Position numbers and translations under genes: made by a program
The notes under the pieces: generated by a model
Told to the model about the DNA's origin: nothing
What the model saw: the letters and a program-made list of their open reading frames with translations, nothing else
Databases searched by the model: none
Shown: piece after piece, positions 35,245-40,419 of the stretch
Numbering within the stretch: the first letter of the stretch is position 1
Layout: each line of letters begins with the position of its first letter
Assembly (NCBI GenBank): GCA_903919615.1
Contig: CAIXIX010000539.1
Location: 1-44,062, forward strand
Length of the DNA: 44,062 nt
Source of the DNA: an uncultured Chthonomonas sp.
Lineage (GTDB): Bacteria; Armatimonadota; Chthonomonadetes; Chthonomonadales; Chthonomonadaceae
Direction of reading: 5' to 3'

Positions 35245-35646
35245 TCAGTACACGTAGCAGAGAACTTCGCCTCCGACGCCTTTTCTGCGCGCCTCGCGAT
35301 CGGTCATCAATCCCTGCGACGTGGAAAGGATCGCGATTCCCAGTCCGCGAAGTACGCGAGGAATCTCTTCTTTGCCACAGTAAACGCGAAGTCCTGGCTT
35401 GCTGACACGCTTGAGGTCAGTAATTACCTTCTCGCGCTTGGCGCCGTACTTCAGGACGATCTTAATCTTGTCCTGGGGCGTCTGCTTGATAACTTCAAAA
35501 CCTTTAATGAACCCTTCTCGGTGAAGGATCTTTGTGATTTCGATCTTAAGTCTCGACGACGAGATTTCCAAAGAATCGTGATTTGCTCGGTTTGCGTTGC
35601 GAATTCTGGTGAGGAGATCTGCGACGGGATCCGTTGTATATGCCAT
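35245..35646 (-). CDS. rpsH: 30S ribosomal protein S8 (uS8)
   Basis: The 133-residue protein opens [20 protein letters not shown] and has the C-terminal signature [20 protein letters not shown] followed by [14 protein letters not shown]8 binds 16S rRNA helix 21 and in E. coli represses the spc operon by binding mRNA near rplE. It follows rpsZ after 12 nt. Confidence 0.97.
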
Positions 35647-35658
35647 TGTGCTTCTCCC

Positions 35659-35844
35659 TTACCAGCTCGACTTTGTAACGCCCGGAATAAGCCCACGGAG
35701 CGCTAATTCTCGGAAGCAGATTCTGCAGATACCAAAGCGTCGAATAACACCACGCGGGCGTCCGCAGCAGTTGCAGCGAGTATATGCGCGGACCGCATAC
35801 TTCGGCTTGCGCTTCTGCTTTTCAATCAGTGCCTGTTTTGCCAA
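35659..35844 (-). CDS. rpsZ: 30S ribosomal protein S14, zinc type (uS14)
   Basis: The 61-residue product is the short zinc-type S14 with C24-x2-C27 and C40-x2-C43, the pattern [20 protein letters not shown] and the C-terminus [12 protein letters not shown] place the start at TTG 35844, which has GGAGG at ideal distance and gives the expected [11 protein letters not shown]-terminus; the frame extends upstream without any homology. Its leader can form two competing long helices. The gene is separated from rplE by an EF-G paralogue, which is unusual. Confidence 0.95.
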
Positions 35845-35993
35845 AAAGATCCTCCATTTAATGTCTCGGGGCTCAGCCCCTGCCGTGCAACAGCCGGTGC
35901 TGCGCGTCGATGGGTCTAAGTACAACCATTTCAGGCTGACGTACCTATCGAAAACGCAGTCACCGGCCATCGACGCCAAGAATGTACGGAGCT
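35845..35993 (-). promoter_or_regulatory. rpsZ leader with two interlocked helices
   Basis: In the minus transcript GCGUCGAUGG (35976-35967) is complementary to CCAUCGACGC (35913-35904). The next segment, CCGGUGACUGC (35966-35956), is complementary with one bulged A to GCAGCACCGG (35903-35894). The order A-B-A'-B' allows a pseudoknot or two exclusive states. GGGGC-UGA-GCCCC (35880-35868) then precedes the GGAGG site. CGGAGC/GCTCCG (35987-36004) overlaps the EF-G stop. Confidence 0.6.
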
Positions 35994-38072
35994 TTAATGC
36001 TCCGCCTCGCGCTCCTTCTTGTGGTTCGCGACGATCGTCTGTGCGATATGAGCCGGCACCTCTTCGTAATGAGAGTGCGTTGCTCCGAATGATCCACGTC
36101 CACGAGTAATGGATCGCAAATCTATCGCATATCGGAGCATTTCGGCATGCGGCACGTTGGCGGTAAGCCGGGTCTTTCCAGGTCCAGCCGACTCCGTGCC
36201 CACAATTCTTCCCCTTTTGCTGGTGAGGTCACTCATGACATCACCCAGCATCGTTTCGGGAATAAACACTTCCACAGTAAGTATTGGCTCTAGCAGCGTA
36301 GGGTTAGCCTTCGCGGCTACCGTAGTGAATCCTATCATGCCAGCCATAATAAATGCTGCTTCAGATGAATCTACGTCGTGATACGAACCGTCGTAACAGG
36401 TAACCTTAATATCGACTACCGGATATCCAGCCTGTATTCCCAACTGCATCGCCTGGTGAACGCCCTTCTCGACAGCCGGAATAAACTGTCGAGGGATAGA
36501 TCCACCAACGATAGCATCGACGTACTCATATCCATTCCCCCGGTTCGGCTCAACTCGTATCCAACAGTCTCCGAACTGTCCTCTACCGCCGGTCTGTTTC
36601 TTATGCCTGCCCTGTCCCTCAGCCTTGGTGCCAACTGTCTCTCGGTAGGGCACGCGGCGCTCAACTACTTCGAGGTTCGCGCCAAATTTCTTCATTCGTT
36701 CTACAACGATGGCAAGATGCGTCTCTCCGGATCCAGCTATAATCGTTTGTCCGGTCTCCGGATCACGATGGAACTGGAAGGCAGGGTCCGAAACCTCTAC
36801 GCGGTGCAACGCTGGCCCCATCTTGTCTTCGTCCACCTTGGATTTGGCAACAACAGCCTGCTCAAAGATCGGCGCAGCGAATTCAATCCCTTCCAATACA
36901 ATCGGGCTTCCACTATCACAAAGCGTATCGCCAGTTCTCGTGTCCGAAAGCTTGGCTGTTACACCGATGTCGCCTGCGTGGATCTCCTGAGTAATCTCCT
37001 GATCCTTGCCTCGGGCGTAGTAGATCTGGCCAACACGCTCTTCTTTGCCTCGAGAGCTGTTTAGTACAGTAGAGCCGGGCTTAAGGATCCCCGACATAAC
37101 TCGAAAGTAGCTGAGTGTTCCTAAATAGGGATCCGCAATCGTTTTAAATATCAGAGCCGATAGAGGAGCAGCATCGGTCGCAGGCCGCCGCTCGGCGGAG
37201 CCAGTTTGCGGATGGCGTCCATGAATATGTTCGATCTCGGTTGGATTTGGGAATTCATGAACGATAATATCCAGAAGATCCGTCATTCCAATATCGCGCG
37301 TCGCTGAACCACATAGCACAGGAACGACCTTGCCAGCGTCGATTCCCTCATGCAGCCCTCGCACAACCTCGTCATGCGTAAGCGTCTCACCGCTTAGAAA
37401 TTTTTCGAGTAGCTCATCATCGCCTTCTGCGGCCGATTCCACCAGAAGCTCGCGATACTTGTTGGCTTCTGAAAGCAGTTCACCCGGTATATCCGTACTG
37501 GCTATGTCTTTGCCAGCGCCAATAAAGGCTTTCATCTCGACGATGTCAATAACGCCGGAAAAATTCTCTGCGCTGCCAACAGGCAGCTGAAAGGGTGCAA
37601 TACAGTTACCATAACGATCACGCAAAAACTCAAGGATCTGTGCGAAGTCCGCATTCTCTCGATCCATTCGGTTAACAAAAACTGCGCGCGGCAGCGACCG
37701 TTCGGCTGCAAGTTCCCATGCATTTTCAAATCCGACTTCAGGCTCACTCTGAGCTGGCGTAACTAGAATCGCGGACTCAACGATAGCCATCGCGCTTGTT
37801 ACTTCGCCGCCAAAATCCAGATACCCAGGAACGTCGACAATGTTTATCTTTGCGCCATCCCACTCACAGGGGGCAAGCGCAATATTGATGCTGATGCGCC
37901 GTTTGTGCTCTTCCGAGTCAAAGTCGCAGGTGGCAGTTCCGTCATCGGTCCGACCCAGACGATCAATCTTACCGGAAACGTACAGCAGGGCTTCCGCCAG
38001 GGACGTCTTACCAGCGCCTTGATGCCCGAACAGACCTACGTTCCGGATCGAACCGATCCCGTAGCTTTTCAT
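35994..38072 (-). CDS. Elongation factor G-like GTPase (EF-G paralogue)
   Basis: The 692-residue protein has all five EF-G domains: G1 GHQGAGKT (16-23), a switch-I region with RRISI (58-62) where EF-G has RGITI, G3 DVPGY (80-84) in place of DTPGH, and G4 NRMD (134-137). The domain IV stretch [19 protein letters not shown] and C-terminal MRYAIDLRS-like end ([18 protein letters not shown]) are present. The DVPGY change removes the usual catalytic His, which places it with EF-G-like paralogues rather than the housekeeping translocase. It lies inside the spc operon between rplE and rpsZ, with a 377-nt structured spacer upstream. Its role may be ribosome recycling, tetracycline-type protection or a stress function. 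Confidence 0.9.
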
Positions 38073-38449
38073 CGTTCACTCTCCTCGCCATTGTATTGAC
38101 TGCGCCACATTTGCATCCCCACAGGGACCACCAGTAAATCGGTAGAAATGCAGCGTTATGTCCTGTCTCGTGAAGGCCGTTCTTCTCGATACCAGTCATC
38201 GTCGTCGAGCTCAATGAACTCGGCGGCGAAGGCAGAGTATTAAGGCAATATATAGTTTTCAAAGAGGAACAGCCTCTAATCTCATCCGTTGAGATACGAA
38301 GCTATTCATGCCACGCGGAGCCAATTCCTCCGCACGTGTGCAGCACCAACGCGATAATTTGCTTGAGGTTGAACTAATCTTCAGAACCACGATGCTTTTC
38401 CTGCTCGCGGAGACAGCAAAGATCTCCGCGAGGCAGTAAACGCAATAAC
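38073..38449 (-). promoter_or_regulatory. 377-nt non-coding spacer upstream of the EF-G paralogue
   Basis: I find no gene here. Reading the minus strand, the spacer has a 10-bp perfect hairpin CTCGCGGAGA/TCTCCGCGAG (38432-38404) 18 nt after the rplE stop, then GCGGAG/CTCCGC (38333-38315, loop 7), then ATCTCA/TGAGAT (38295-38279, loop 5), then an AT-rich patch TTGAAAACTATATATTG with TTAATACT (about 38262-38236) that may be a promoter. GGCGAGGAGAG precedes the ATG. Confidence 0.5.
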
Positions 38450-39915: not shown

Positions 39916-40419
39916 TTATTTGGCCTTTTCGACGATCCGCACTACGCGCCACCGCTTCTCGCGAGAGAGCGGACGCGTCTCCATGATCTCGACAGTATCG
40001 CCTTCACCGCATGAGTTTTCCTCATCGTGGGCTTTAAACTTGGTAGTTCTCTTAAGAAACTTTCCGTAAAGCGGGTGTCGCTCTCGGCTCTCGACAGCAA
40101 CAACAACGGTCTTCTCCATTTTGCTGCTTACGACCTTGCCAACACGCACCTTGCGGCGTCCGCGTACTGGAGCTGGCTCTGCACCAAAGTCGATGACATC
40201 GATCTGGGGCGCGGCCGGTTCTACTACAGGCGCTGCTGCGCGATCGGCTTTAACTCGCGTTGCCTTTACGGGAGCAGGCGCTGGTTCTGCAACCGGCTCT
40301 GGTTCTGCAACCGGCGCTTCTTCTGTTGCTTCAACAGCGACGGGCTCAACTACTGCTGCTTCGATCGGCTCCACTGCGCTCGTCTCCGCTGGATCAGTTT
40401 GGGTTATCTCATCGGACAT
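39916..40419 (-). CDS. rpsQ: 30S ribosomal protein S17 (uS17) with acidic N-arm
   Basis: Residues 86-167 are a normal S17 OB fold ([60 protein letters not shown]). The first 85 residues are an Ala/Pro/Glu/Val-rich arm with repeated EPV and AEP units, so the protein is twice the usual length of about 85. The ATG directly follows rpmC by 3 nt, and there is no other start close to the core. The arm is probably disordered. Confidence 0.94.

Follow-up and report, generated by a model that had tools for sequence, protein, structure and literature searches.

A predicted pseudoknotted RNA between an EF-G paralogue gene and rpsZ in one family of Armatimonadota, a candidate ribosomal-protein leader

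The window analysed here, a stretch of 44,062 nucleotides from an uncultured Chthonomonas sp. (Armatimonadota), carries on its minus strand a ribosomal-protein operon encoding S17, L14, L24, L5, a paralogue of EF-G, S14 (type Z), S8, L6, L18, S5, L30, L15, SecY and Adk (identified with Pfam and NCBIfam). The EF-G paralogue is encoded directly upstream of rpsZ in 26 of 30 rpsZ loci from this genome and its relatives, and elsewhere the genome of the window encodes another EF-G, which shares 42% identity with the paralogue. The question raised by this locus is what RNA is formed by the 149-nt intergenic region between the paralogue and rpsZ, in which a preliminary description had found two interlocked helices, interpreted as a possible pseudoknot or two-state switch. 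Comparison with related genomes suggests another answer: the interlocked segments belong to P3, one arm of a new structured RNA at the junction of the two genes, which is a candidate ribosomal-protein leader (r-leader) for rpsZ and the downstream spc genes, a reading to which we assign a probability of roughly 0.62. The genes and the ribosome-binding site concerned are the following (hairpins P1 and P2 are located below).

35994..38072, minus strand: EF-G paralogue, 692 aa; P1 and the 5' half of P2 fall in its final codons (Pfam, NCBIfam NF009381)
35851..35855, minus strand: Shine-Dalgarno sequence GGAGG of rpsZ (from the sequence)
35659..35844, minus strand: rpsZ, type Z S14, 61 aa, with a UUG start at 35844-35842 (Pfam PF00253, NCBIfam NF005974)
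35245..35646, minus strand: rpsH (S8), the second gene downstream of the RNA element and a candidate regulator (Pfam PF00410)

The S17 protein of this operon (39916-40419, minus strand) is extended at its N terminus by some 90 residues in which Ala, Pro, Glu and Val are abundant, its Pfam domain occupying residues 94-161.

Interlocked segments in the intergenic region

The four segments that prompted the pseudoknot proposal were located by complementarity.

35967..35976, minus strand: segment A (GCGUCGAUGG), perfect 10-bp match with A'
35955..35966, minus strand: segment B, 11 bp with B' around one bulged A
35904..35913, minus strand: segment A' (CCAUCGACGC), perfect 10-bp match with A
35894..35904, minus strand: segment B', 11 bp with B around one bulged A

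The A/A' helix is present where it was described, and so is B/B' with its single bulge, although the latter comprises 11 bp and not the 10 previously counted; base 35904 is common to A' and B'. Such an arrangement is indeed unlikely by chance: when the 149-nt intergenic region was shuffled 4000 times with its dinucleotides preserved, a perfect helix of at least 10 bp occurred in 23 shuffles, and one interlocked with another helix of at least 6 bp in 9 (~0.2%). The small GC hairpin (35880-35868) and the GGAGG that follows it (35855-35851) were likewise correctly described. The whole leader is predicted to be strongly structured: it folds at -79.7 kcal/mol, where shuffled sequences average -57.96 with an sd of 4.4 (z = -4.94).

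The inventory of pairings was nevertheless incomplete, for segment A, when G-U pairs are counted, has a better downstream partner within 35899-35884 (CACCGGCUGUUGCACG), and the result is a single long nested hairpin. In the minimum-energy fold of the RNA from 36035 to 35842 (194 nt, -86.4 kcal/mol) A and B lie together in this hairpin, which is closed by CGU 35975-35973 and ACG 35886-35884. Forcing A/A' yields only -70.2 kcal/mol, a cost of 16.2, and the computed probability of A/A' is 0; A/A' excludes B/B' and vice versa, the bias being 16 kcal/mol. When growing transcripts were folded, A/A' belonged to the best fold for one of the 18 3' ends tested (35903), so that it could form briefly during transcription, but for the following one (35899) it had already been displaced. 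A test set beforehand, whether relatives conserve the complementarity, goes against A/A': the sequences of all four segments are unconserved even in a genome of the same genus, where the arm is a short simple hairpin, and the P3 sequence differs from that of the window in each of the other 15 genomes that carry the element, compensatory changes strongly supporting other helices of the same leader instead. A strained pseudoknot or two-state switch made of A/A' and B/B' and specific to the genome of the window would account for real, interlocked matches equalled in so few shuffles, and for the transient optimum at 35903; on folding energy and absent conservation it was rejected as the functional fold, and we regard it as very improbable. 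The broader idea of a structured, probably regulatory RNA containing a pseudoknot survives, with the predicted pseudoknot formed by 36021-36016 and 35982-35977.

Architecture, distribution and covariation of the larger RNA

Alignment of the junctions of the family (the Chthonomonadaceae-like family f1 of the Armatimonadota) indicates that the 149-nt intergenic region of the window is part of a larger conserved RNA, extending from 36031 to the Shine-Dalgarno sequence of rpsZ, the core of which lies mostly outside 35845-35993 and begins inside the coding tail of the EF-G paralogue. The order of its elements is P1, P2, UUCUUG, P3, ACA (GCA in the window), P4, GA and the Shine-Dalgarno sequence.

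36007..36031, minus strand: P1 hairpin UCGCG-AA-CC-[ACAAGAA]-GG-AG-CGCGA, with a 7-nt loop, inside the EF-G-paralogue coding tail (conservation of the 25-nt block, frozen codons)
36016..36021, minus strand: CAAGAA of the P1 loop, 5' strand of the pseudoknot (pairs with 35982-35977 in 16/16 genomes)
35986..36005, minus strand: P2 hairpin GCGGAGC-AUUAAA-GCUCCGU, with the EF-G stop codon (35996-35994) in its loop (minimum-energy helix, covariation)
35977..35982, minus strand: UUCUUG, 3' strand of the pseudoknot (complementarity to the P1 loop, comparison)
35884..35975, minus strand: P3, a variable stem-loop arm of 92 nt in the window (minimum-energy helices, covariation)
35868..35880, minus strand: P4 hairpin GGGGC-UGA-GCCCC, followed by the conserved GA (fold, two-sided changes)

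Segments A, B, A' and B' all fall within P3 except the first base of A. The presence of the P3 stem is conserved, its sequence and length being variable (less than half of 92 nt in the same-genus genome); P3 and P4 are degenerate in genome G007 and altered in G006. The predicted pseudoknot is of the H type, with an S2 of 6 bp, an L1 of 1 nt, no L2, and P2 inside L3; one base of L1 spanning six pairs, together with the absence of L2, is what we take to be classical H-type geometry. Some 120 nt separate the pseudoknot from the downstream Shine-Dalgarno sequence of rpsZ, which is unsequestered in the predicted fold; pairing of a CUCC in the P2 loop with the Shine-Dalgarno sequence was seen by eye in some genomes only, and was dropped. 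In genome G003 (locus L164) the EF-G stop codon and P1 are separated by a long hairpin (GAUCGAGCGAG...CUCGCUCGAUC).

The distribution found by searching is narrow. The model R1, built from 12 leaders with the window left out, recovered the window at 75.7 bits (E 4e-26) and matched upstream of rpsZ in 16 of 17 genomes of the family (E 1e-14 to 1e-47). Across the phylum 21 of 291 genomes matched at E <=1e-3, these being the same 16 and five of the 274 others, which are marginal (E 6.8e-5 to 7e-4); one of the five (G017) matches at the rpsZ junction and has a homologous EF-G tail, with no P1 seen. The element is single copy and upstream of rpsZ in all 16 genomes that carry it, and the P1 pattern occurs once in the genome of the window. 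An apparent second copy in G014 proved to be one locus divided between two contig ends, and a weak second match in G003 (E 0.0017), which covers the beginning of an unrelated ORF, was taken as chance. The sole genome of the family without the element (G008) is nested within the family on a small tree of S14, S8 and L6, with low support, which makes loss of the element likely there.

Support for the helices comes from an alignment (A2) that was fitted to the structure with the pseudoknot written in, in which 96.3% of 487 cells are paired and 15 of 32 pairs show two-sided change; with the partners slid by 1-3 columns, 38-45% are paired, and none of 500 shuffles scored as high on four of five measures of pair counts (6/500 on the fifth). 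Because A2 was fitted, an unfitted MAFFT alignment of 12 leaders was also folded, and from it RNAalifold recovered P1-P4 unaided, with two-sided change in 13 of 28 pairs. RNAalifold also proposes a UG/CA pairing at the base of P3 that uses bases of the pseudoknot and thus competes with it. The individual helices differ in how much they vary: the 25-nt block of P1 is identical in 13 of 16 genomes and keeps its pairing in the other three, two of its seven pairs varying and one of these by two-sided change; P2 has two-sided change in four of six modelled pairs (16 genomes), P3 in seven of nine (relatives), and the outer pair of P4 changes on both sides from G-C to A-U at loci L160 and L164. The pseudoknot was computed to pair in 16/16 genomes with one compensatory change, at L160 (the same locus as L007), where CAGGAA in the loop faces UUCCUG in the strand; when the J2/3 strand was shuffled genome by genome, six pairs formed in 0.3-6% of trials. 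What speaks for the predicted pseudoknot is invariance and a single compensatory event. Taken by comparison of sequences, the junction encodes a conserved, clade-restricted RNA, predicted to be pseudoknotted, directly upstream of rpsZ.

Overlap of P1 with the EF-G coding tail

P1 lies in the reading frame of the EF-G paralogue in eight genomes (G000, G001, G004, G006, G010, G011, G015 and G016), is non-coding and follows the EF-G stop codon in six (G002, G003, G005, G009, G012 and G014), and is present without the EF-G paralogue in two (G007 and G013). In the latter two genomes (completeness 87 and 93%) only one EF-G was found, about 42% identical to the paralogue, and P1, P2 and the pseudoknot strand are all kept. 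Where the overlap exists, six of the seven columns at P1 that are invariant in amino acid are also invariant in codon, versus one of 66 upstream (Fisher p = 2.8e-7; eight genomes); the varying codon among the seven is an Ile codon just outside P1. That P1 is conserved only as the code for the C terminus of the EF-G paralogue might be suggested by its coding position in those eight genomes and by the similarity of the tail across the order, but this explanation is scarcely credible, being contradicted by the frozen synonymous sites, by P1 being non-coding in six genomes and retained after loss of the paralogue in two, and by the change in the L160 loop, which is matched beyond the stop codon. 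Since the EF-G tails of outgroup families resemble, by eye, the peptide encoded by P1, P1 appears to derive from EF-G coding sequence and to have been uncoupled from it later in some lineages; it was probably exapted from the C-terminal codons of EF-G. The junction provides a clear case of a probably regulatory RNA that has apparently grown from the end of a neighbouring protein-coding gene and outlived it.

The EF-G paralogue of G002 (locus L195, G002:C3:89914-91980) has one in-frame TAA over its aligned length, and is perhaps a decaying gene or affected by a sequencing error. In the genus g2 (loci L010, L012 and L013) a short frame begins at an AUG situated a few bases past the GGAG of P1 and ends just after P4, a possible leader peptide that is absent, by eye, in most other genera; a short ORF starting in P1 was dropped as a general feature of the element.

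Candidate function and comparison with known leaders

Two properties of known r-leaders are found here, a position immediately upstream of a ribosomal-protein gene (16/16) and a conserved structure with covariation, and we infer that rpsZ and the downstream spc genes may be under autogenous control by a protein of the operon. The element would then be a cis-acting ribosomal-protein leader inside a long ribosomal-protein operon: an operon protein in excess, most likely S8 or S14, would bind the pseudoknot core, the bound core would lower initiation at rpsZ, and rpsH and further genes would follow by translational coupling. P3 would serve as a spacer arm free to vary, and this freedom could explain the enlarged P3 of the window with its fortuitous alternative pairings. 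In the genome of the window, a ribosome finishing EF-G would come to its stop codon within the P2 loop, melting the element for a short time. A fuller scheme, in which an operator carved from the EF-G coding tail is mechanically reset by translation of EF-G to the stop codon in the P2 loop, tying synthesis of S14 and the spc proteins to that of EF-G, and in which the RNA is kept alone where the paralogue was shortened or lost, is tentative, and the odds are somewhat against it.

Other functions can be envisaged for the same RNA. It might be a processing or stability element, such as an RNase site or 3'-end protector, that divides the operon into an upstream half and a part starting with rpsZ, and is not controlled by a ligand; the intra-operonic location, the long double-stranded arms and the open Shine-Dalgarno sequence would suit such a role, but the most conserved part is the pseudoknotted, sequence-specific core and not a long stem, and the length of P3 is free, so that we consider it unlikely. 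Sensing of a metabolite, ion or trans-acting RNA in place of an operon protein is more doubtful still: a compact pseudoknot with invariant loops does resemble an aptamer, and mimicry of a ribosomal-protein site was not found (the S8 core described below is absent, and P1 and the junction have no clear counterpart in the 16S and 23S rRNA of one genome, G003, the assembly of the window itself having no 16S match), yet the element is single copy and confined to the position upstream of rpsZ in a ribosomal-protein operon, whereas riboswitches usually precede several metabolic operons. An r-leader bound by an operon protein remains the preferred reading.

The E. coli alpha-operon (S4) and rpsO (S15) have operator pseudoknots for autogenous control by ribosomal proteins that involve the start region itself, in contrast to the pseudoknot of the family, at its distance upstream of the Shine-Dalgarno sequence. 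Another candidate leader with a pseudoknot upstream of a ribosomal-protein gene is that of rpsB (S2), which belongs to a different gene and is far more widely distributed (PMC2704228). The r-leaders of Eckert and Weinberg 2020 (PMC7247131) are similarly clade-restricted, immediately upstream of ribosomal-protein genes and supported by covariation; Table 1 of that paper lists neither an S14 or S8 leader nor any Armatimonadota, and overlap with an upstream coding sequence, a feature of the present element, found no mention in the portions of the paper drawn upon. Rfam 15 gave no match to the window at the gathering score, and a search of 10 loci with E up to 10 gave three sub-threshold matches, none to a known ribosomal-protein leader. 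Among open-licence PMC papers, judged by titles and the starts of abstracts, no description of the element was found.

A functional parallel is the S8 operator in E. coli spc mRNA, at rplE, which is likewise a feedback target within the same ribosomal-protein operon and acts with translational coupling; S8 is the known spc regulator of E. coli, and according to the part of that source used here, it is not known how spc is controlled in B. subtilis or in other species (PMC10931766). The E. coli operator lies at the start of rplE, whereas the element of the family lies between the EF-G paralogue gene and rpsZ, is predicted to be pseudoknotted, and lacks the S8 core. This core (G597-C643 with U641, invariant A642, C599-G639, and 1/3 and 2/1 internal loops) was found in 0 of 16 leaders of the family in either strand order, by a pattern that in a control on 16S rRNA found h21 and one other site. 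S8 can bind RNA that lacks the consensus (PMC4176348, in the sections cited), so S8 may yet be the ligand of the leader.

An S8-like core is present, instead, in the leaders of the sister family f3, in which S14 was matched in 11 of 12 genomes and nine loci were fetched, two of the 11 being left out.

f3 leaders (locus:positions): L009:1446-1503, L018:1447-1504, L020:1454-1511, L021:1454-1511, L022:1454-1511, L024:1412-1503, L027:1458-1515, L029:1452-1509, L030:1406-1502

All nine read CGUUACC-stem-CCGACG abutting the Shine-Dalgarno sequence of rpsZ and are unrelated to the leader of the first family. Eight of the nine match the S8 core once its strand order is permuted, versus 16 of 9000 shuffles, a post hoc result since the pattern was written after the f3 leaders had been seen. 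The base triple A+80-(A+81-U+11) of spc mRNA, as given in the cited part of PMC4176348, implies the same permuted order in the E. coli operator; the triple position in f3 is C-C-C, which differs from the A-(A-U) and G-(C-G) already known. Given the S8-like leader of f3, it is plausible that the junction of the EF-G paralogue gene and rpsZ is a point of S8 control in this order, at which the first family would use a different RNA. The junction offers a concrete, testable candidate operator in one family of Armatimonadota, and the sister family has an S8-like one, unrelated to it, in the corresponding place.

The intergenic region between L5 and the EF-G paralogue (38073-38449, minus strand) probably forms another structured leader, one that would serve the EF-G paralogue. 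It contains CUCUUUGAAAACU, which we take to be boxA-like, then a conserved CUCUGCCUUCGCCGCCG...CGACGACG, and a shared GGCGAGGAGAGU before EF-G, an arrangement found in most genomes of the family (L187, L188, L190, L191, L194-L197 and L199); for comparison with the boxA-like motif, the 16S leader of G003 carries GCUCUUUGACAAU.
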